Source: Roseateles sp. XES5 (GTDB lineage Bacteria; Pseudomonadota; Alphaproteobacteria; Rhizobiales; Rhizobiaceae). From it: a stretch of DNA of 64,000 nt. Of the stretch, positions 39,663 to 49,574 are shown piece after piece. Under the pieces are notes generated by a model, which saw only the letters and a program-made list of their open reading frames with translations, had not been told where the DNA came from and ran no database searches. The translations under genes were made by a program, and so were the position numbers. Where the stretch lies: the NCBI RefSeq assembly GCF_020535545.1, contig NZ_CP084754.1, forward strand, positions 558,001-622,000. Direction: 5' to 3'. Position 1 is the stretch's first letter, and the number at the start of each line of letters is the position of its first letter.

Positions 39663-40783
39663 CCGGATTTGCGGGGTTTGAGGCCATAAGGACCAAGGTC
39701 GCGGTGAGCCAGGGGCAGGCCGAAGCGCGATGCCGTGGCGCTCGCCGCCTCGATGCCGGGAACGACGTCGACGGGGATGTTCTCCCGGTCGAGATGGACG
39801 ATCTCCTCTCCGGCACGGCCGGAGCCAGGCGTAAGCCGCACCACGCGCTGGCCGGCCTTGGCGAGCCGAACCATCATGGCGTTGATGTCCTCCTGCCGGC
39901 CGCTTTCGCGGCCGCCGCGTTTTCTCACCGGCAGGCGCTTCGCTTCCCGGCGCGCCAGTTCCAGCACGTCGGCGGAGACGCGGTCGTCGAAGAGGATGAC
40001 ATCGGCCGCCTGCAGCGCGCGCACGGCCTTGAGCGTCAGGTGTTCCGCATCGCCTGGCCCCGCGCCGACGAATGTCACGCGACCGATGGCGGGGGCTTCC
40101 GCGAGCCGTTCGGCCTCAGCGAGAAGCACCCCGCCCACGCCCTCCTCCGGCGTATCCAGCGTGGAAAAGACCGCATCGGAAAACCGCTCCCAGAAGGCGC
40201 GGCGCGGCGGGCCGGGCTGCAGGCGACGGTTGACCGTCTCACGCAGCGACTGCGCCAGCGCCGCCCATGCCTTCAGGCTGTGCGGCAGAAGCGTCTCGAT
40301 CCTGCGGCGGATCGTCTGCGCCAGGATGGGGGCTGCGCCATCCGTTGAAATCGCCACCACCACGGGCGAGCGGTTGACGATCGAGCCGAACTGGAACTGG
40401 CAGAAAGCCGGATTGTCGATGACATTGACCGGCACGCCCGCCGCACGCGCGGCCGCGGCGAATGGTTCCGCATCCTCCTCGCAGTCGCCGACCGCCAGCA
40501 CCGCGCCCGGAAGATCCGATGGCGCCCAGCACCGGTCGTGTCGCGTCAGATGCGCGGCCGGATGTTCCGGCCTGCGGATGAACAGCGCCTCGAAAGCCTC
40601 GCTGAAGCGCTCCGCATAGACATCGACGCACGCACCGCAGGCGGCCAGCAGCTCCGCCTTCCACATCGCGGCATCCGTACCGCCGGCGATGACGACACGC
40701 TTGCCCTCCAGCGCCCAGAAGACGGGCAGTTTGGCGAGCGGCGCCATGCGGGATTCATTGCGCGGCAGCGGCAAGACATCCAT
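39614..40783 (-). CDS. cysG: Siroheme synthase CysG, 3'-truncated (C-terminal part of the SUMT domain lost)
   Basis: A 389-residue protein where a full CysG has about 460-480. The N-terminal precorrin-2 dehydrogenase/ferrochelatase domain has VFWALEGKRVVIAGGTDAA and NVIDNPAFCQFQFGSIVNRSPVVVAISTDGAAP. The methyltransferase (SUMT) domain begins VTFVGAGPGDAEHLTLKAVRAL and continues to VVPGIEAASATASRFGLPLAHRD. There, near 39690, similarity stops: the reading frame runs into sequence convergent with the dppF-like gene and ends after about 24 unrelated residues. The lost part includes the conserved VTGH and YMG segments, so methyltransferase activity is doubtful. It overlaps nasA by 29 bases and should supply siroheme to NirB. 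Confidence 0.85.
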   Translation of the reverse strand: MDVLPLPRNESRMAPLAKLPVFWALEGKRVVIAGGTDAAMWKAELLAACGACVDVYAERFSEAFEALFIRRPEHPAAHLTRHDRCWAPSDLPGAVLAVGDCEEDAEPFAAAARAAGVPVNVIDNPAFCQFQFGSIVNRSPVVVAISTDGAAPILAQTIRRRIETLLPHSLKAWAALAQSLRETVNRRLQPGPPRRAFWERFSDAVFSTLDTPEEGVGGVLLAEAERLAEAPAIGRVTFVGAGPGDAEHLTLKAVRALQAADVILFDDRVSADVLELARREAKRLPVRKRGGRESGRQEDINAMMVRLAKAGQRVVRLTPGSGRAGEEIVHLDRENIPVDVVPGIEAASATASRFGLPLAHRDLGPYGLKPRKSGHRETALRPKESSSRV

Positions 40784-43412
40784 CGACGATCCCCCTGATC
40801 TCTGCGCGGCAGGAGCCGCAATTGGTGCCGGCATTGAGCGCCTTGCCGACGGCTTCGACGCTGTGGCAACCGCCACGCACGGCGGCGACGATCTGGTTGA
40901 CGCCGACGCCGAAACAGGAACAGACGGTGGCGCCGGGATCCGGCTTGTCCGCACCCGGCCGGCCGGCGACGAGCGCGAACCGCTTGCGCAGGTTGGCGTG
41001 TTCGGCGGCAAGCTGCGCGATCGCCCAGTTGCGGGCGACGGCCACGGGCTCGCGCGCCAGGAAGAAAGCGGCAAGGAGCCGCGTGCCCTCGAAGAAGGCA
41101 AGCCTGACGTCGCCGGTCTGCGCATCCGCATAGCCGAGCGGCTCGACATGGGCGGGAATGGCCAGAGCGCGGCGACACCAGTCCGTCCAGGCTCCCACCG
41201 GCGCAACGAAGGCCAGTTCCAGCCGCCAGCCGCCATCGGCCCTGGCAAGCGCCCAATAGGCTGCGTCCAGATCAACCGGCTTTGTCCGCGAAACGGCAAA
41301 GGCATAGTGCTGCGCCTTGAACCGGCGCGCCGCGACAGCGATGTTCTTCGAGGCCGGCTGGCCGGAAAAACGGTCGGTGATGGCAGGCACGACGGCGTCG
41401 ATGCGCGCCCTTGCAGCAAACTGGTCGTTCCAGTGCATGGGGGCAAAGATGCTGCCCCGCGCCTGGCGCTCGGTGATGAGGGCGCGCACGACCACCCTTC
41501 CCTGCGGGCTCTCGATCTCGACCAGCCCGGCATTGCCGACACCGATCTCCATCGCATCGCGCGGATGCAGTTCCGCGAAGGGTTCGGCGATATGGGACGA
41601 GAGGCGCGCGCTTTTGCCTGTGCGCGTCATGGTGTGCCACTGGTCGCGGATGCGGCCGGTGTTCAGCGTGAAGGGATGGTCGGCATTCGTGCGGTCGCTT
41701 TCCACCGGCTCGACAGCAACGAAACCGGCCTTGCCGCCGGCATGGTAGAAGCCGCCATCGGCGAAGAAGCGGGTTTCCGTAGGCGCCTGCCCTGCCGGCT
41801 GCGGCCACTGGAAGGGCGCAAGGGCATCATAGGCATTCTGGGCGATGCCAGCATGCGCGCCGATGTCGAAATCCCGGCGGCCGGCGTTCTCGAAAGCCGA
41901 AAGGGCCGCGTGTTCGGAAAAGATCTCCGCCGGCGCGGTATAGGCGAAGGCCTCCGCAAAGCCCATTCGGCGCGCGACTTCGGCAAGCTGCCACCAGTCC
42001 GCCCTGGCCTGGCCGGGGGCATCGAGGAAGGCGCGCTGGCGGGAAATGCGGCGCTCGGAATTGGTGACCGTTCCGCTCTTCTCCCCCCAGCCGAGCGACG
42101 GCAGCAGCACATGGGCGAGCCGGGCGGTGTCGGTTTGCCGGAGGATGTCGGAGACGACGACGAAAGGACAGGTCTTGATCGCCGCCGCGACGGCGTCGGC
42201 GTCGGGCATGGAAACCGCAGGGTTCGTCGCCATGATCCAGAGCGCCTTGATACGCCCCTCGGCAACGGCCTGGAAAAGATCGACGGCCTTGAGGCCAGGC
42301 TTCTCCGCAATGACCGGCGAGGCCCAGAAGCGCTGCACCCGGTCGCGGTCATCGGCGCTTTCGAGGGCCATATGAGCGGCGAGCATGTTGGCGAGCCCGC
42401 CCGCCTCGCGCCCGCCCATGGCATTGGGCTGGCCGGTCAGCGAGAAAGGGCCGGCACCGGGGCGGCCGATCTGTGCCGTGGCCAGATGGCAATTGAGGAT
42501 CGCATTGACCTTGTCGGTGCCCGAGGTCGACTGGTTGACGCCCTGGCTGTAGCAGGTGACGACCTTCTCGGTCGCCGTGAACAGGCGGTAGAATTCGCGA
42601 AGCTGCATGGCCGGAAGGCCGGTCCGTTCCAGCACGTCGCGGAAGGAAACGCCAGCGGCGGCCGAAAAGGCTTCGGCAAAACCTGACGTATGCGCGGCCA
42701 CATAGTTCTGCTCGACGGCATTGTTCGAGACGAGATGGGCAAGCAGGCCGACAAACAGCGCCACATCCGTATCGGGACGGATGGCGAGATGCAGGTCGGC
42801 CATGTCGGCCGTCATGGTGCGGCGCGGATCGATGACGACGACCTTCATGCCCGGACGCCGCTGTTTGGCCGCGACAATGCGCTGGTAGAGCACGGGATGA
42901 CACCAGGCGAGGTTCGAGCCGGTCAGGATGACGAGATCGGCCAGTTCCAGGTCTTCATAGGTCCCCGGCACCGTATCCGAACCGAAGGCCCGGCGATGAC
43001 CGGCAACGGAGGAGGACATGCAGAGCCGGGAATTGGTGTCGATATTGGCCGAGCCGAAAAACCCCTTCATCAGCTTGTTGCCGACGTAATAATCCTCCGT
43101 CAGCAATTGGCCGGAAACATAGAATGCCACGGAATCGGGGCCGTGCTCGGCAATCGCACCGGCGAATTTCGCGGCGACGAGGTCGAGCGCCGCGGCCCAG
43201 GACGCCTGCCGGCCATCGATCTCCGGATGGAGGAGGCGACCGTCAAGGTCGATCGTGTCGGCAAGCGCCGCCCCCTTCGAGCAGAGCCGGCCGTAATTCG
43301 ACGGATGGTCCGGATCGCCCTTGACGGAGACGGCGCCGTCTTCGGCGACCGTCGCGACGACACCGCAGCCGACGCCACAATAGGGGCACGTTGTCTTGAC
43401 CGCCTGTTCCAT
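40755..43412 (-). CDS. nasA: Assimilatory nitrate reductase catalytic subunit (molybdopterin, NasA/NarB type)
   Basis: An 885-residue molybdoenzyme reducing nitrate to nitrite in the cytoplasm. The N-terminal 4Fe-4S site is CPYCGVGCGV (Cys9, 12, 16) with the fourth Cys in GRLCSKG. MGD-binding segments include NIDTNSRLCMSS, TGSNLAWCHPVLYQRI and QGVNQSTSGTDKVNAI. The C-terminal molybdopterin dinucleotide domain has NTGRIRDQWHTMTRTG. An extra C-terminal BFD-like 2Fe-2S domain (CSCFGVGVNQI and GTNCGSCRAEI, about residues 828-870) is typical of NasA forms that take electrons from NAD(P)H or ferredoxin partners. It starts 1 bp after nirD. Confidence 0.95.
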   Translation of the reverse strand: MEQAVKTTCPYCGVGCGVVATVAEDGAVSVKGDPDHPSNYGRLCSKGAALADTIDLDGRLLHPEIDGRQASWAAALDLVAAKFAGAIAEHGPDSVAFYVSGQLLTEDYYVGNKLMKGFFGSANIDTNSRLCMSSSVAGHRRAFGSDTVPGTYEDLELADLVILTGSNLAWCHPVLYQRIVAAKQRRPGMKVVVIDPRRTMTADMADLHLAIRPDTDVALFVGLLAHLVSNNAVEQNYVAAHTSGFAEAFSAAAGVSFRDVLERTGLPAMQLREFYRLFTATEKVVTCYSQGVNQSTSGTDKVNAILNCHLATAQIGRPGAGPFSLTGQPNAMGGREAGGLANMLAAHMALESADDRDRVQRFWASPVIAEKPGLKAVDLFQAVAEGRIKALWIMATNPAVSMPDADAVAAAIKTCPFVVVSDILRQTDTARLAHVLLPSLGWGEKSGTVTNSERRISRQRAFLDAPGQARADWWQLAEVARRMGFAEAFAYTAPAEIFSEHAALSAFENAGRRDFDIGAHAGIAQNAYDALAPFQWPQPAGQAPTETRFFADGGFYHAGGKAGFVAVEPVESDRTNADHPFTLNTGRIRDQWHTMTRTGKSARLSSHIAEPFAELHPRDAMEIGVGNAGLVEIESPQGRVVVRALITERQARGSIFAPMHWNDQFAARARIDAVVPAITDRFSGQPASKNIAVAARRFKAQHYAFAVSRTKPVDLDAAYWALARADGGWRLELAFVAPVGAWTDWCRRALAIPAHVEPLGYADAQTGDVRLAFFEGTRLLAAFFLAREPVAVARNWAIAQLAAEHANLRKRFALVAGRPGADKPDPGATVCSCFGVGVNQIVAAVRGGCHSVEAVGKALNAGTNCGSCRAEIRGIVDGCLAAAAQ

Positions 43413-43413
43413 C

Positions 43414-43743
43414 CTATTCGGCCGCCATCATCAGGCTTTCGAGCGCGATGAACAGCGCGCCGCCGTCGTTTTTGAGCACGATCGTCTTCACCGCACCCTG
43501 GTCCGCACCGAGCGCCTTGCCGGTTTCGAGCGAGATGACCCAGTTGTGCAGCGGGCAGGTGACGGCTTTGGCATGGACGATGCCCTGGCTGAGCGGCCCG
43601 CCCTTGTGCGGGCAATGGTCCTCGATGGCGAAGACCTCGTTTTCCGCGGTGCGGAACACGGCGATCCTGCCCTGCGGGGTCTTCACGCAGCGCGCGCCGC
43701 GCAGCGGGATGTCGGCGATATCTCCGATGGCAAACCAGTTCAT
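43414..43743 (-). CDS. nirD: Nitrite reductase small subunit NirD (Rieske)
   Basis: A 109-residue Rieske-fold protein and the small subunit of NADH-dependent assimilatory nitrite reductase. The 2Fe-2S ligands are in the pair CPHKG (EDHCPHKGGPLSQG) and CPLHNW (TCPLHNWVISLETG), giving the full C-x-H and C-x2-H set. AGGAGGT precedes the ATG at 43743. It lies between nirB (10 bp) and nasA (1 bp), consistent with one transcript. Confidence 0.95.
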   Translation of the reverse strand: MNWFAIGDIADIPLRGARCVKTPQGRIAVFRTAENEVFAIEDHCPHKGGPLSQGIVHAKAVTCPLHNWVISLETGKALGADQGAVKTIVLKNDGGALFIALESLMMAAE

Positions 43744-43753
43744 GTCCGACCTC

Positions 43754-46195
43754 CTATTCCGCAGCGTCCGGGTAGCCGATGGTCGCCATCGGCCGGAATT
43801 CATGTTTGTCCTTGCCGGAGACGCGCTCCGACCAGGGATCGACCTGGGCAAATTTCTGGGAGAAGACGAAGCGGTCGTAATAGGCCTTGCGCTTGTCCGC
43901 ATCGTCCATGATCTGGCGGCGGATCTCATCGAGGCCGATGCGCTTTGCCCATTTGTAGATGCGCTCGAGATAACGCGCCTGCTCGCGGTACATCTGCGTC
44001 AGCGCCACGATATGCTCCAGCGCCTCGTCCTCGCTCTTCACGAGGCCGAGCACCTCCGTGCCCTTGATGTCGAGACCGGCGGCACCGGCGAAATGGATCT
44101 CGAAGCCGGAGTCCACGCAGATGACGCCGATGTCCTTGCAGGTCGCTTCCGCGCAGTTTCGCGGACAGCCGGAAACGGCCATCTTCAGCTTGGCCGGCGT
44201 CCAGGACCCCCACATGAATTTTTCGATGCGAATGCCGAGCCCGGTGGAATCCTGCGTGCCCATGCGGCACCACTCGCTGCCCACACAGGTCTTCACGGTG
44301 CGCAGGGCCTTGGCATAGGCATGGCCGGAGGGCATGCCGATGTCCTTCCAGACATTCACCAGGTCTTCCTTCTTCACGCCCAGCAGGTCGATGCGCTGGC
44401 CGCCGGTGACCTTGACCGTGGGGATGCGGTACTTGTCCACCGCATCGGCAATGCGGCGCAGCTCGGCGCTGCTGGTCTCGCCGCCCCACATGCGCGGGAT
44501 CACGGAGTAGGTCCCGTCCTTCTGGATATTGGCGTGGGCCCGCTCGTTGATGAAGCGGGACTGATAGTCGTCGGCATAGGCATCCGGCCAGTCGCAGATG
44601 AGGTAGTAATTGAGCGCCGGGCGGCACTTGGCGCAGCCGCAGGAGGTTTTCCATTCCAGTTCCTGCATGACGGCCGGAATGGACTTCAGCCCCTTGGCCT
44701 TGATCAGGCGGCGCACGTCGTCATGGCCGAGGTCGGTACAGCCGCACATCGGCTGAACGGCGGCGGGATTGTAACTGTCGCCGAGTGTCAGCGTCATCAA
44801 CTGTTCGACGAGCCCGGTGCAGGAGCCGCAGGAGGCGGATGCCTTGGTATGGGCCCGCACATCGTCCAGCGAGGTCAGCCCCTTACCGGTGATCGTCGAG
44901 ACGATCTTGCCCTTGCACACGCCGTTGCAGCCGCAGATTTCCGCATCATCCGGCAAGGCTGCAACGGCCGCCATAGGGTCCAGCGGAGCGCCCCCCTGAT
45001 AGGCCTGGCCGAAGATCAACGTCTCGCGCATCTGCGAGATGTCGGTCTGCTTCTTCTTCAGGTCGTTGAACCAGGCGCCGTCGGCGGTTTCGCCATAGAG
45101 CACTGTGCCGACGATCCTGTTGCCCTTCAGCACGAGGCGCTTGTAGACGCCGGCCGATGCGTCGCGCAGCACGATCTCCTCGCGGTCGTCGCCATCGGCG
45201 AAATCGCCAAGCGAAAAGAGTTCGATGCCGGTGACCTTGAGCTTGGTCGGCGTATCCGAATGCACGAAGGCGGCGCCATGCTCGCCCGCAAGGTGCGAAG
45301 CCATGACACGCGCCATCTCGTAGAGCGGAGCGACGAGGCCATAGACCATGCCGCCGACCTCGGCGCATTCGCCAAGCGCCCAGATGCTGCCATCGGAGGT
45401 CTGCATGCCATGATCGACGACGATGCCCCGATTGATCGCAAGCCCCGCCTCCCGCGCAAGTCCAACATTCGGGCGAATGCCGACGGCCATGACGACGAGC
45501 GTTGCCGGAACGATGCGGCCATCCTCCAGTTCGATGCCCTCGACCTTGCCGTTGCCGACGATGGCCTTGGTGTTTGCCTTGCAGATGATCTTGATGCCGC
45601 GCCCCTCCAGCTCTTTCTGCAGGAGGTAGCCGGCGGCCGGGTCGAGCTGGCGATCCATCAGGGTCGGCATAACATGGAGCACGGTGACATCCATGCCGCG
45701 GCCGGCGAGGCCGGCGGCGGCTTCGAGCCCCAGGAGGCCGCCGCCGATGACGACGGCCTTTTCCCGCGACTGGGCCGCCAGCAGCATGGCCTGGGTGTCG
45801 GCGATATCACGGTAGGCAATCACGCCGTCCAGCTCCTTGCCGGGCACCGGCAGGATGAAGGGCTTGGAGCCGGTGGCGATGACCAGCTTGTCATAGCTTT
45901 CCGTGACGCCGTAGTCGGATGTGACGGTCCTGGCATCGCGGTCGATGGCGACGATGCGATGGCCCTTGTAGAGCGTGATGCCATGCTTGATGTACCAGCC
46001 GTCGCCGTGAATGATGATCTCCTCATAATCCTTCTCGCCCGACAGCACCGGCGAAAGCATGATGCGATCGTAATTGACGCGCGGCTCGGCGTTGAAAATG
46101 GTGACCTCGTATTGGCCCGGCGCCTTTTCGAGGAGATGCTCCAGCATGCGCCCCGGCGCCATGCCATTGCCGATGATGACGAGTTTCTCGGTCAT
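43754..46195 (-). CDS. nirB: Nitrite reductase large subunit NirB (NADH, siroheme)
   Basis: An 813-residue flavo-sirohaem enzyme reducing nitrite to ammonium. It begins LVIIGNGMAPGRMLEHLLE (FAD-binding) and has a second dinucleotide site AVVIGGGLLGLEAAAGL. Two BFD-type cysteine clusters follow (CGCNGVCKGKIV with SCGSC, and TSCGCAKCRPALNYY). The siroheme/4Fe-4S half has CVGSEWCRMGTQDSTGLG and SGCPRNCAEATCKDIGVICVD, giving all four cluster cysteines. It needs siroheme, which makes the truncated cysG notable. It starts 15 bp after narK. Confidence 0.96.
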   Translation of the reverse strand: MTEKLVIIGNGMAPGRMLEHLLEKAPGQYEVTIFNAEPRVNYDRIMLSPVLSGEKDYEEIIIHGDGWYIKHGITLYKGHRIVAIDRDARTVTSDYGVTESYDKLVIATGSKPFILPVPGKELDGVIAYRDIADTQAMLLAAQSREKAVVIGGGLLGLEAAAGLAGRGMDVTVLHVMPTLMDRQLDPAAGYLLQKELEGRGIKIICKANTKAIVGNGKVEGIELEDGRIVPATLVVMAVGIRPNVGLAREAGLAINRGIVVDHGMQTSDGSIWALGECAEVGGMVYGLVAPLYEMARVMASHLAGEHGAAFVHSDTPTKLKVTGIELFSLGDFADGDDREEIVLRDASAGVYKRLVLKGNRIVGTVLYGETADGAWFNDLKKKQTDISQMRETLIFGQAYQGGAPLDPMAAVAALPDDAEICGCNGVCKGKIVSTITGKGLTSLDDVRAHTKASASCGSCTGLVEQLMTLTLGDSYNPAAVQPMCGCTDLGHDDVRRLIKAKGLKSIPAVMQELEWKTSCGCAKCRPALNYYLICDWPDAYADDYQSRFINERAHANIQKDGTYSVIPRMWGGETSSAELRRIADAVDKYRIPTVKVTGGQRIDLLGVKKEDLVNVWKDIGMPSGHAYAKALRTVKTCVGSEWCRMGTQDSTGLGIRIEKFMWGSWTPAKLKMAVSGCPRNCAEATCKDIGVICVDSGFEIHFAGAAGLDIKGTEVLGLVKSEDEALEHIVALTQMYREQARYLERIYKWAKRIGLDEIRRQIMDDADKRKAYYDRFVFSQKFAQVDPWSERVSGKDKHEFRPMATIGYPDAAE

Positions 46196-46210: not shown

Positions 46211-47437
46211 TTACGCAGCGACAGCGGGAACGGAGACGCGCTCCATCTGGCGGATGGACAGATGCATCCAGAAAAGCGAGATGGCGACGACGGCGAAGAG
46301 CAGGATGAAACAGCTCGACCACAGGCCCGTCGCGTCCTTGAGGAGGCCGAAGGCGATGGGCAGGAGGAAGCCGCCAAGCCCGCCGACCATGCCGACAATG
46401 CCGCCGACAGCGCCGATGCTTTCGGGATAATAGGCCGGGATATGCTTGTAGACGGCCGCCTTGCCGAGGCTCATGACGAAGCCGAGGACGAAGACGGCGA
46501 GGATGAAGATGGCCGGCGGCAGGGCGGCCGGTACGGAGAGGACCAGCGTTGCGGCCGCCGAAACCCCGAACACCCAGTACATGACGCTGCGCGCGCCCTT
46601 CCGGTCGGACAGCATGCCGCCGAGCGCCCGGAAAATGCTGCCGGGGACGGAATAGGCCGCCGCGATCATACCGGCCGTGGCGATGTCGAAACCGTAGACG
46701 CCGACGAGATAGCGTGGCAGCCACAGCGACAGGGCCACGAATCCGCCGAAGGCGAAGAAATAGTACAGCGAGAAGCGCCAGACCTGGGCGTTCTTCAGCG
46801 GCGCGAATTCCTGCAGCATCGGGCGGCGCGGCGCCCTGCCTCCCTTACGGCTGCGGAAGGCGGGATCGTCGGAGGTGGTGAACCAGAAAAGCACGGCGGC
46901 CAGGAACAGAGCCGCCGCCCAGTATTCCGCCACCATCTGCCAGCCTGCGGCGACGAGCACGACGGGCGCCAGGAACTTGGTCACCGCCGCGCCGACATTG
47001 CCGGCGCCGAAAATGCCGAGCACCGTCCCCTGCTTTTCGGCCGGAAAGAACGGCGAGACATAAGCGATGCCCACGGCGAAGGAGCCGCCCGCAAGCCCGA
47101 TGCCGAGACCTGCCAGCAGCATTTGCGGATAGGTCGTGGCATGCGACAGCAGGAGCGTGGCGAAGGCTGCCGCCAGCATGGTCAGCGTATAGACCAGGCG
47201 GCCGCCATAGCGCGTCGTCCAGACACCGAGCACGATGCGCACCAGCGATCCGGTGAGAATGGGGGTGCCGACGAGAAGACCGAACGCGGCTTCGCTGAGC
47301 CCCAGCTCTTCCTTGATGCGGATGCCGATGATCGCGAAGATCGTCCAGACGGCGAAACAGATGGTGAAGGCGAAGGTTGACATCCACAGGGCGATTGCCG
47401 GTTCACTGGCGGATAGAGGTTTGCTGGTCGCAGACAT
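46211..47437 (-). CDS. narK: Nitrate/nitrite MFS transporter (NarK/NasA type)
   Basis: A 408-residue major facilitator protein with 12 membrane helices. Nitrate-signature motifs are visible: GLGIGLAGGSFAVGIAYVSPFFPAEKQGTVLGIFGAGNVG (first) and GVMSLGKAAVYK-like region (FVMSLGKAAVYKHIPAYYPESIGAVGGIVGMVGGLGG, second). The ATG at 47437 follows GGAGAA. It is the first gene after the regulated leader and heads narK-nirB-nirD-nasA-cysG, importing nitrate for the pathway. Confidence 0.94.
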   Translation of the reverse strand: MSATSKPLSASEPAIALWMSTFAFTICFAVWTIFAIIGIRIKEELGLSEAAFGLLVGTPILTGSLVRIVLGVWTTRYGGRLVYTLTMLAAAFATLLLSHATTYPQMLLAGLGIGLAGGSFAVGIAYVSPFFPAEKQGTVLGIFGAGNVGAAVTKFLAPVVLVAAGWQMVAEYWAAALFLAAVLFWFTTSDDPAFRSRKGGRAPRRPMLQEFAPLKNAQVWRFSLYYFFAFGGFVALSLWLPRYLVGVYGFDIATAGMIAAAYSVPGSIFRALGGMLSDRKGARSVMYWVFGVSAAATLVLSVPAALPPAIFILAVFVLGFVMSLGKAAVYKHIPAYYPESIGAVGGIVGMVGGLGGFLLPIAFGLLKDATGLWSSCFILLFAVVAISLFWMHLSIRQMERVSVPAVAA

Positions 47438-47483: not shown

Positions 47484-47556
47484 TGAAAACAAAAAGCCGC
47501 AGGCCAGGGCATGCGAGACGGATGGTCCGTCGTCACAGATCCTGATCAGCGGCTTT
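47484..47556 (-). terminator. Leader terminator of the nitrate operon (NasT-controlled)
   Basis: Read on the minus strand, AAAGCCGC (47556-47549) pairs with GCGGCTTT (47500-47493). A 4x4 internal loop and a further CAGG/CCTG stem follow, and a small GACGGA/TCCGTC hairpin caps the inside. The 3' arm runs straight into TTGTTTT. This is an intrinsic terminator 47 bases before the narK start. Its 5' arm lies inside hairpin P2, so the two structures exclude each other. Confidence 0.82.
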
Positions 47557-47584
47557 GCTGGTGGGGCGCCCGTCGTTGGACGCC
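47547..47584 (-). promoter_or_regulatory. Tandem hexaloop ANTAR-binding RNA motif (P1 and P2)
   Basis: On the minus-strand RNA, P1 (47584-47565) has a 7-bp stem, GGCGUCC / GGGCGCC with one G-U pair, and hexaloop AACGAC. After a 4-base linker, P2 (47560-47547) has a 4-bp stem, CAGC / GCUG, and hexaloop AAAGCC. Both loops carry A at position 1 and G at position 4, the rule known for ANTAR-protein target RNAs (EutV, NasR, AmiR class). P2 uses the bases of the terminator's 5' arm. NasT bound to P1-P2 would therefore prevent termination. Confidence 0.82.
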
Positions 47585-47616
47585 GATTTCGTGACCCGAA
47601 GGCCCGGGCGATAAAA

Positions 47617-47633
47617 AGCAATCGGCGTGCCAG
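47617..47633 (-). promoter_or_regulatory. Sigma-54 (-24/-12) promoter of the nitrate operon
   Basis: Minus strand CTGGCACG-N4-TTGCT matches the RpoN consensus YTGGCACGrNNNTTGCW at all fixed positions. It predicts a start near 47606, placing P1, P2 and the terminator in a short leader of about 170 bases before narK. Nitrogen-limitation control through NtrC is therefore expected; I could not identify a convincing NtrC site upstream. Confidence 0.8.
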
Positions 47634-47760
47634 TTTCGGCAAGCCATTGATTCACAACGAAAAGGAAACTCTATGAAGCGTCGAGACTTGCCGGGCGGCT
47701 TTCAGCCCGTGCATTGCAAAGTCATTTTTTGTGCAGTGCGCATAAATTAAGCGCCGCGCA

Positions 47761-48975
47761 TCAACCGGCAGATTGCGCGGCGATATAGGCGTCGACGTCG
47801 TCGGGATCGAAGCGGCCGCCATCGAAGAATCCATCCGGTCCCAGCGTCAGCGCGCCGGAAGAGCCGACCGGCGTTGCGACCGTCAGCGCCCCCTCGACCT
47901 TGGCGCTGGCGGAGGGCATGGCGATGCCGAGGTCCTTCAGCGCGGCCCGGTAGATGTCCGGGCGGTAGGTCTCCGCCGCGATGTGCTGGTGCTTCGTCGT
48001 GTGTTCGATCTGCCGCCAGCGAACCATCTGGGTGTAAAACCAGAGCGCATGGCTCTTCCACGGAAAAGTCGCCGCCCTGGCATTCGGTACGAAGAAATCG
48101 TCGATGGACCGCACGACGCCGCCCCCGACCGGCAGCTTGCCGCTGAGCGCCGGCAGAAGCAGCTCCACATCGCGCCCGACATAGGCCGGCTGCGCCAGAA
48201 GCGCGGCAAGCGCCGCACGATTGTCCGGCCGGGCGCACCACAGCGAGGCCTGGTGCAGCGCCACGAGCAGCGCGGCCATCGCCTCTGGATTGGCTTTGCC
48301 CCAACGCGCGTTGACGCCCAGCACCTTTTCCGGGCTCGACTGCCAGATCGCCGCCTTGACGGTCGCAAGATGCCCGCCGCGGCGCAGCACGCCGAACGCG
48401 TTCCAGGGTTCGCCCGCACAATAGCCGTCGATCACATGCTCGGCGAGCGCATCGCCCATATCCGGCGGCGGCAGCACGACGATCTCGATATCGCGATCCG
48501 GATCGATACCGCTCGCCGCCAGCCAGTACCGCAGTTCGTAATTGTGCCCGGAATAGGGATGCACGACGCCGAAGCGCAGCGGTCGCCCGGCCCGCGCCGC
48601 GATCACCGCACGGAGCGCGGCACCATTCGCGCGCGCATCAAGATCATCCGTCGCGCCCTTGTCCGCCATCGCCTGCCAGAGCGCCGGCGAGACGGTGACG
48701 GCGTTGCCGCCAAGACCGAGCGCCATGGGCACGATCATGTCGGGGGCGGGAACATTCAGGCCGAGATTGCCGGCGATCGGCATGGGGCCGAGAATATGCG
48801 CGACGTCGATATGGCGCACCGCCAGCCGGTCCCGGATGCTTGCCCAGGAGCGCTCGCGCAGCAATGTGAGCGCGATCCCCTGCTCCTCGGCAAAGCCCAT
48901 CTCGCGGGCGACGACGAGGAGCGCGCTGTCGAGCAACGGCACGAAGCCGGCGGTGATGGCGTGGCGCGTCGTCAT
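47761..48975 (-). CDS. nasS: Nitrate/nitrite sensor NasS (NrtA-like, cytoplasmic)
   Basis: A 404-residue protein of the NrtA/CmpA binding-protein fold without signal peptide, so cytoplasmic, as expected of NasS. Typical segments are AGFVPLLDSALLVVAREMGFAEEQGI, LAVRHIDVAHILGPMPIA, VHPYSGHNYELRYWL and DGYCAGEPWN. In Azotobacter, Paracoccus and Bradyrhizobium, NasS holds NasT inactive until nitrate or nitrite binds. It overlaps nasT by 4 bases and lies directly upstream of the nitrate leader. Confidence 0.94.
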   Translation of the reverse strand: MTTRHAITAGFVPLLDSALLVVAREMGFAEEQGIALTLLRERSWASIRDRLAVRHIDVAHILGPMPIAGNLGLNVPAPDMIVPMALGLGGNAVTVSPALWQAMADKGATDDLDARANGAALRAVIAARAGRPLRFGVVHPYSGHNYELRYWLAASGIDPDRDIEIVVLPPPDMGDALAEHVIDGYCAGEPWNAFGVLRRGGHLATVKAAIWQSSPEKVLGVNARWGKANPEAMAALLVALHQASLWCARPDNRAALAALLAQPAYVGRDVELLLPALSGKLPVGGGVVRSIDDFFVPNARAATFPWKSHALWFYTQMVRWRQIEHTTKHQHIAAETYRPDIYRAALKDLGIAMPSASAKVEGALTVATPVGSSGALTLGPDGFFDGGRFDPDDVDAYIAAQSAG

Positions 48976-49574
48976 TCCGTTCCTCCGGGATCGAGCAAGC
49001 CGGCGGCCGTGACAAGGCTTTGCGCTATCTCGGCGATCTTGCGGTTCTGGTTCATCGCCGTGCGGCGCAGCAGCGCATAAGCCTCGTCCTCCGAGAGCCC
49101 GCGAGAGCGCATCAGCAGCCCCTTGGCGCGGTCGATGACCTTGCGGCTCTCGAGCTCGCCACGCGTCTCGTCCAGCTCGCGGGTGAGACGGGAAAAGGCG
49201 TTGAACCGGCTGATCGCCATCTTCAGGATCGGCCGCACCCGCTCCTGCTTCAGTCCGTCGACAATATAGGCAGACACGCCCGCCTCGACCGCCGCCTCGA
49301 TGGAGGCCTCGTCGGATTTGTCGACGAACATGGCAATGGGACGCCTGACGGCGCGCGAAAGCTGGAACATGCTTTCCAGCATGTCGCGGTTCGGGTTTTC
49401 GAGATCGATGACGATAATATCGGGATTGAGATCGGCAATGCGGCGCGCCAGACCCTGCATGACGTCGATGACCGTCACCTGGTCATAACCGGCATCCCGC
49501 AGCCCGTCTTCGATGATGGCGGCGCGAATGCGATTCTCGTCGATAACAAGTACGTTCAGTCCATTCGGCTTCAT
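48972..49574 (-). CDS. nasT: Transcription antiterminator NasT (receiver-like and ANTAR domain)
   Basis: A 200-residue protein. The N-terminal receiver-like domain (about residues 5-120) has LNVLVIDENRIRAAII and DIIVIDLENPNRD. A coiled segment leads to the RNA-binding ANTAR domain (about 140-190), KVIDRAKGLLMRSRGLSEDEAYALLRRTAMNQNRKIAEIAQSLV. It binds double-hexaloop leader RNA to stop terminator formation; a matching target exists at 47547-47584. It forms an operon with nasS. Confidence 0.95.
   Translation of the reverse strand: MKPNGLNVLVIDENRIRAAIIEDGLRDAGYDQVTVIDVMQGLARRIADLNPDIIVIDLENPNRDMLESMFQLSRAVRRPIAMFVDKSDEASIEAAVEAGVSAYIVDGLKQERVRPILKMAISRFNAFSRLTRELDETRGELESRKVIDRAKGLLMRSRGLSEDEAYALLRRTAMNQNRKIAEIAQSLVTAAGLLDPGGTE

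Follow-up and report, generated by a model that had tools for sequence, protein, structure and literature searches.

A probable NasT-dependent antitermination leader with a sigma-54 promoter match ahead of a nitrate assimilation operon in Roseateles sp. XES5

What controls the nitrate assimilation genes that follow nasS in Roseateles sp. XES5? The window (the whole stretch of 64,000 nucleotides that was analysed) carries on its minus strand, in this order, nasT, nasS, a leader, a NarK-type MFS transporter gene, nirB, nirD and nasA. The product of nasT (48972..49574) is an ANTAR RNA-binding protein with a receiver-like domain (PF03861, 79.9 bits; PF00072, 37.9 bits), 94% identical to a Shinella curvata protein. 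The gene overlaps by 4 bp nasS (47761..48975; PF13379 NMT1_2, 237 bits), which encodes the predicted nitrate/nitrite-binding partner of NasT. Downstream of the leader lie the transporter gene (46211..47437, ATG at 47437; MFS_1, 135 bits), which would be the first gene of the controlled operon, nirB for the large subunit of assimilatory nitrite reductase (43754..46195; Pyr_redox_2, Fer2_BFD, NIR_SIR), nirD for the small subunit (43414..43761; Rieske / Rieske_2) and a nasA/nasC-type assimilatory nitrate reductase gene (40755..43412; Molybdopterin, Molydop_binding, Molybdop_Fe4S4, Fer2_BFD). By these Pfam matches a cognate ANTAR gene lies close to the leader and nitrate assimilation genes follow the leader on the same strand, and the ANTAR and NMT1_2 domains confirm what an earlier note on this DNA had said of nasT and nasS. 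That note had also proposed NasT antitermination. Anatomy, mutual exclusivity of structures, covariation, conservation and gene context support this reading, and we consider it highly likely, from sequence and predicted folding, that the leader responds to nitrate and works by NasT (ANTAR)-dependent antitermination of transcription.

The leader lies between nasS and the transporter gene and begins with a sigma-54 (RpoN) promoter match, CTGGCACGCCGATTGCT (47633-47617, minus strand). Sigma-54 promoters were scored against the -24/-12 consensus TGGCACG-N4-TTGC, to which this 17-base element has no mismatches; the -24 GG and the -12 GC are both present, with 10 bases between them. From promoter spacing, the transcript would start at about 47606. 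A 5′ hairpin with a UUCG loop, not of the A1/G4 type, is predicted at this putative start (P0, 47590..47606). It is followed by two hairpins with A1/G4 hexaloops: P1 (47584-47565), GGCGTCC-AACGAC-GGGCGCC, with 7 bp, and, after a linker of 4 bases, P2 (47560-47547), CAGC-AAAGCC-GCTG, with 4 bp. An intrinsic terminator, comprising an inner helix and a hairpin between its arms, occupies 47493..47556 (-34.1 kcal/mol alone) and leads into an interrupted U tail, TTGTTTT (47486..47492). Its 5′ arm, AAAGCCGC (47556-47549), consists of the P2 loop and part of the P2 3′ stem, so that bases 47549-47556 are common to both structures; the 3′ arm is GCGGCTTT (47500-47493). On re-reading, the positions that the earlier note had given for promoter, P1, P2 and the 5′ arm of the terminator, and its sequence of the tail, proved exact to the base.

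A free energy of -56 kcal/mol is predicted for the fold of the 123-nt leader (z = -3.63), and none of 200 shuffled sequences folded as well. The predicted full-length fold contains the terminator, and a structure forced to hold P1 and P2 is 6.5 kcal/mol less stable. For nascent transcripts of 60, 66, 76, 91 and 106 nt, all predicted folds contain P1 and P2; at 111 nt the predicted fold contains the terminator.

Relatives were searched with a finder script that required a tandem pair of hairpins with A1/G4 hexaloops and a terminator overlapping the second of them. In 80 nasT loci (3,145,266 bases counting both strands) it found 75 leaders in 68 loci, all of them located downstream of nasT and sharing its strand. 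A nitrate transport or nitrite reductase gene comes next in 73 of the 75, and the other two reach the contig end. Of these 73 leaders, 45 are followed first by an MFS gene, 27 by a gene for an ABC substrate-binding protein of the NrtA/NasS family and one by nirB. Seven loci have two leaders, the second of which precedes an MFS gene in all seven. Among the 30 nasS loci of a second set, 14 gave a leader, the window's own being one of these. Some loci of both sets are the same stretch (L005/L057, L007/L076, L012/L081 and L014/L102, for example), so that the sets are not independent of each other. The finder failed in 12 of the 80 nasT loci and in 16 of the 30 nasS loci. A looser pattern gave a near match in three of the 12, one of which (L096) has G at P2 loop position 1 by eye, leaving nine of the 80 nasT loci without a leader by either pattern. 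The leader is conserved in Rhizobium, Ensifer, Shinella and Mesorhizobium genomes. Since the finder requires the A1/G4 loops and the overlapping terminator, conservation of these among the hits is by construction.

The 4-base linker between P1 and P2, which the earlier note had singled out as short, has the length it gave and is ordinary, since linkers among the 75 leaders range from 0 to 6 nt with a mode of 3 nt. The U tail (47486-47495 in the window) is broken by one or two non-U bases, in the manner of TTTTTGTTTT, in 68 of the 75. In L008 (2907-2965) and L012 (2888-2948), with nasS on the plus strand, three A1/G4 hexaloop hairpins stand in a row, the third lying upstream of P1.

Covariation was assessed in an alignment (A2) of the window leader and 60 of the 75 non-identical leaders, 61 sequences in all, from which 15 near-duplicates were omitted. 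P1 had 95.1% of cells paired, with both sides changed in four of its seven pairs; the terminator had 97.0%, with both sides changed in eight of 14. P2 had 81.6% of cells paired; at one of its pairs 49 sequences have GC and 12 have AU, and 45 of the 61 leave the outermost pair unpaired. Covariation in related genomes, on which the earlier note had staked its model, was found: none of 500 shuffles reached the score of P1 with P2 and none that of P1 with the terminator, in a test where related sequences may beat shuffles without any structure. Sliding the partners by one to three columns lowered the score from 0.152 to at most 0.082 for P1 with P2, and from 0.259 to at most 0.108 for P1 with the terminator. 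A weaker measure counts further pair types; here the value of P1 with P2 was reached in 31 of 500 shuffles. Loop positions 1 and 4 of P2 stay A and G in this alignment, as the search required. Loop position 3 changes together with its partner in the terminator (A-U in 53, G-C in four and C-G in two of 61), and the common segment therefore appears to be under two constraints, one from the hexaloop hairpin and one from the terminator arm. Judged from their common bases, the predicted energies and the covariation of both helices, P2 and the terminator are mutually exclusive.

These results bear on a rival explanation, an ordinary intergenic terminator of nasTS with an unrelated transporter promoter after it, the hairpins being incidental. 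A strong intrinsic terminator does follow nasS. However, the promoter match lies upstream of it, which places the terminator inside the operon's own transcript, and P1, P2 and the terminator covary. A sigma-54 match with at most two mismatches precedes 69 of the 75 leaders, and in 65 of these 69 the distance from promoter to P1 is 47-55 nt. We regard this explanation as largely refuted and give it very little credence.

Further upstream is a conserved motif, TGCGCACTGCACAAAAAATGACTTTGC in the window (47716..47742, minus strand), perhaps an NtrC enhancer. Its core, GCR-NN-GCACA, was found in 59 of 70 upstream regions (the window and 69 leaders), against a mean of 0.4 in shuffled sequences; its distance upstream from the -24 element is about 107 or 130 bases. 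The consensus continues as GCACAAAATTTGTGC, that is GCAC-N7-GTGC, which we take to be the spacing of NtrC half-sites; in the window the second of them is weak. The pattern given for NtrC in PMC5424462 matched 39 of the 70 regions with at most two mismatches, compared with 306 of 1400 shuffled ones. In the window its best match has three mismatches and lies away from the conserved motif. NtrC acting through this motif is therefore unproven as the activator, though likely.

In the NasT reading, nitrogen limitation would turn on the sigma-54 promoter, probably via NtrC bound upstream, and RNA polymerase would produce P1 and then, transiently, P2. With nitrate absent, NasT would be held by NasS; once the 3′ arm was out, the more stable terminator would capture the P2 loop and 3′ stem, and transcription would terminate ahead of the transporter-nirBD-nasA operon. 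With nitrate or nitrite present, NasT would be freed by NasS and, on the A1/G4 hexaloops, would keep P2 closed, so that the terminator would be prevented and the operon read through. One published observation counts against such a scheme: a nasT mutant of Bradyrhizobium showed raised, not lowered, expression of narK-bjgb-flp, although hairpins are predicted there (PMC6759348).

ANTAR/NasT antitermination leaders are a known type with a published mechanism, of which the window leader is a further member. The two-hairpin ANTAR mechanism is set out in PMC3369931 and its structure in PMC8934654; according to PMC7496416 the two-hairpin motif occurs for NasT, and NasT targets in Bradyrhizobium have been published (PMC6759348). 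In layout the window resembles the nasA leader of Paracoccus denitrificans (PMC3795266, PMC5424462), where nasT-nasS lie directly upstream and hairpins stand between nasS and the nas operon. There, NasT binds the leader RNA after nitrate (PMC3795266), a chromosomal hairpin-I mutant lost growth on nitrate (PMC5424462) and NtrC adds a layer of control; the window's counterparts of the binding and of the NtrC layer are predicted from sequence. This likeness is one of layout, and the window has a sigma-54 match at the leader. The Klebsiella nasF leader (PMC7496416) shares with it two A1/G4 hexaloop hairpins, a P2 that overlaps the terminator and a nitrate assimilation operon; its regulator NasR, however, is a one-component NIT-ANTAR protein, whereas the window has a separate NasS sensor and NasT as the ANTAR protein. 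The Enterococcus eut leaders bound by EutV (PMC3369931, PMC8934654) likewise have dual A1/G4 hexaloops, with the second hairpin exclusive with the terminator, but differ from the window leader in signal and sensor. Linkers also differ: those of eut are 5-12 nt, whereas 0-6 nt was found in the NasT leaders here, 3 nt being commonest. That a linker of 3 nt impaired eutP (PMC3369931) is a point against the NasT reading. For Sinorhizobium meliloti, PMC6616083 (2019) states that control of nitrate assimilation was not known and that the NasS/NasT homologs awaited test. The leader offers a precise, testable answer for the Rhizobium/Ensifer/Shinella/Mesorhizobium group, as represented by genomes of these four genera.

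Among Rfam families, the window leader scored 18.9 bits (E 0.23) with narK RNA (RF03032; gathering score 43.2) and 11.6 bits (E 3.2) with P11 (RF00625; gathering score 70). Since these scores are far below gathering, the alignment of both families to the leader, made at a relaxed threshold, is a hint only, and the window is not a member of either. A match to RF02883 (BcKCsr2, 16.3 bits) covers only the terminator and U tail; the A1/G4 loops were not seen in it, and it was taken as chance. The RF03032 consensus begins with a sigma-54 match, followed by P1 with the loop AACGGC and then by an unmarked CGAC-AAAGAC-GUCG; the Rfam structure marks P1 only and omits P2. Because sigma-54 matches and A1/G4 loops are present in the consensus lines of both families, 398 genomes of the phylum were searched. 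The narK RNA was found in 21 (16 above cut-off), P11 in 24 (14 above) and both in 17.

We fetched 30 of the 36 narK RNA matches and 20 of the 27 P11 matches. An A1/G4 hairpin with an overlapping terminator was placed by script in 25 of the 30 narK loci, one of them misplaced (L177; for L183 the script's P2 is another hairpin), and a further A1/G4 hairpin lies upstream of that P2 in 23 of 30. All 20 P11 loci contain GGAC-AA[AC]GGC-GTCC, and upstream of this P2 there are two further non-overlapping A1/G4 hairpins in 11, one in five and none in four. P11 matches combine a sigma-54 match with A1/G4 hexaloop hairpins, the last of which overlaps a terminator. The best hit downstream was an MFS protein for 15 of the 30 narK matches, an NrtA/NasS-like protein for nine, NasA for three, NirB for one and none for two; a porin-like frame lies downstream in one narK locus (L180) by eye. 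For the 20 P11 matches it was NirB in 15, an NrtA-like protein in four and none in one, where the downstream frame is cobA-like by eye.

Rfam gives the type of the narK RNA simply as Cis-reg, which would suit a riboswitch, or hairpins that bind a protein other than NasT, as well. The loops argue against this, since A1/G4 loops with a C-G closing pair are the ANTAR recognition rule obtained by SELEX (PMC7496416). So does co-occurrence: an ANTAR protein is encoded in 21 of 21 narK RNA genomes and in 23 of 24 P11 genomes, compared with 155 of 398 overall (hypergeometric 1e-9 and 2e-9, kinship ignored), figures that are not independent because one family supplies 16 of the 21 narK and 15 of the 24 P11 genomes. 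A riboswitch or a different protein is, in our judgement, highly improbable.

The unmarked P2 was examined in a further alignment (A3), hand-picked for spread, of the window leader, 17 alphaproteobacterial leaders (one of them, L045, a looser-pattern find), 16 of the 30 narK loci and one of the 20 P11 loci (n=35). In it 92.8% of cells are paired; at the second-innermost pair of P2, 18 sequences have GC and 17 have AU. No shuffle reached the covariation score, and the number of pairs with both bases changed was reached by 21 of 500. Given this pairing, P2, absent from Rfam's narK structure, is very probably a real helix in narK RNA. By sequence, the window leader, the narK RNA matches and the P11 matches are built alike and form one large conserved class, which suggests that both Rfam families could be described as sigma-54/NasT-type antitermination leaders. 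This bridge and the three-hexaloop forms are perhaps the parts unfamiliar to specialists. RF03032 itself gave no match at E 0.001 in the window's genome and 58 genomes of the class, and a literature search whose scope excluded most subscription journals did not find narK RNA, narK motif or RF03032 as words.

The position of narK matches relative to the ANTAR gene takes two forms. In eight genomes the ANTAR domain is followed, after 28-239 nt, by the start of a match on the same strand; in ten the match lies about 1.9 kb upstream of the domain. Six of these ten were fetched (L169, L174, L175, L179, L181, L182), and all precede an NrtA/NasS-family gene (32-36% identity), which suggests that the nasS-nasT regulator operon may itself be under NasT antitermination in those genomes.

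The P11 matches, which share the leader's anatomy, raise another possibility, that the locus is a small-RNA gene whose product, a terminated RNA of about 115 nt, works in trans, with read-through secondary. P11 of Pseudomonas aeruginosa has been studied as an sRNA (PMC12080996). NfiR of P. stutzeri is described as acting on nifD mRNA, and P11 is among the homologs that its authors name (PMC6606865). Unlike the window leader, P11 matches often have further A1/G4 hairpins. The structure here, however, is built on the exclusion of P2 and terminator, and this and the same-strand nitrate genes after 73 of the 75 leaders fit control in cis; we regard a primary role in trans as improbable. Romeo et al. 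(2012) reportedly dealt with antitermination in nitrate assimilation in Pseudomonas aeruginosa. P11 has been described as a regulator of the nitrogen assimilation operon (PMC12080996), a statement that goes back to Marogi et al. (2024), whose abstract reportedly speaks of nitrate, sensor proteins and P11; a connection between P11 and nitrate sensing may already have been published there. NfiR adjoins a nasA gene, and the text searched of PMC6606865 does not mention NasT or antitermination. P11 also has a central part in the disputed inheritance of pathogen avoidance by worms, where its level varies with growth conditions (PMC12080996 and PMC12604852). If it is a leader of the NasT type, its level should vary with the supply of nitrogen and nitrate.

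A broader proposal would join these RNAs. The alphaproteobacterial sigma-54-NasT leaders, narK RNA and P11/NfiR would be one class in which one promoter has two outputs, operon mRNA with nitrate and a stable free small RNA of about 115 nt without it; a third hexaloop would have been gained in some lineages, and a free-standing copy would lie away from the nas genes in the window's genus. Taken whole, this proposal is speculative and rather unlikely.

Other candidate targets were sought in the window's genome, which has three ANTAR genes. The other two (L002, L003) each lie beside AmiC-like and ABC transporter genes by eye. An RNA model (R1) returned 13 hits with E values of 10 or less, of which only the window leader was strong (8.8e-17) and one was the antisense of that leader. 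Three further hits (L115, L117, L118) were rejected as NasT targets, being plain terminators at gene ends by eye; L115 comes after an rpsD-like frame. As R1 is close to its training set, divergent NasT targets could be missed.

A second sigma-54 element was seen in the window's genus. Its exact pattern is absent from the window's genome, where it was dropped as a candidate NasT target, and occurs in 15 of 21 genomes of the genus (L203-L217, at about position 1500). The element consists of a promoter, a hairpin GGTCCAGAGGGGACC, in most cases a P1-like GCGTCCAACGAATGRCGC with a mismatched closing pair, a degenerate P2 and a strong terminator, and may have arisen from a NasT leader as a small RNA that stands by itself. 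In the five loci examined by eye it lies between chemoreceptor-like and RND-adaptor-like frames. The element was also seen in L139 and L148-L152.
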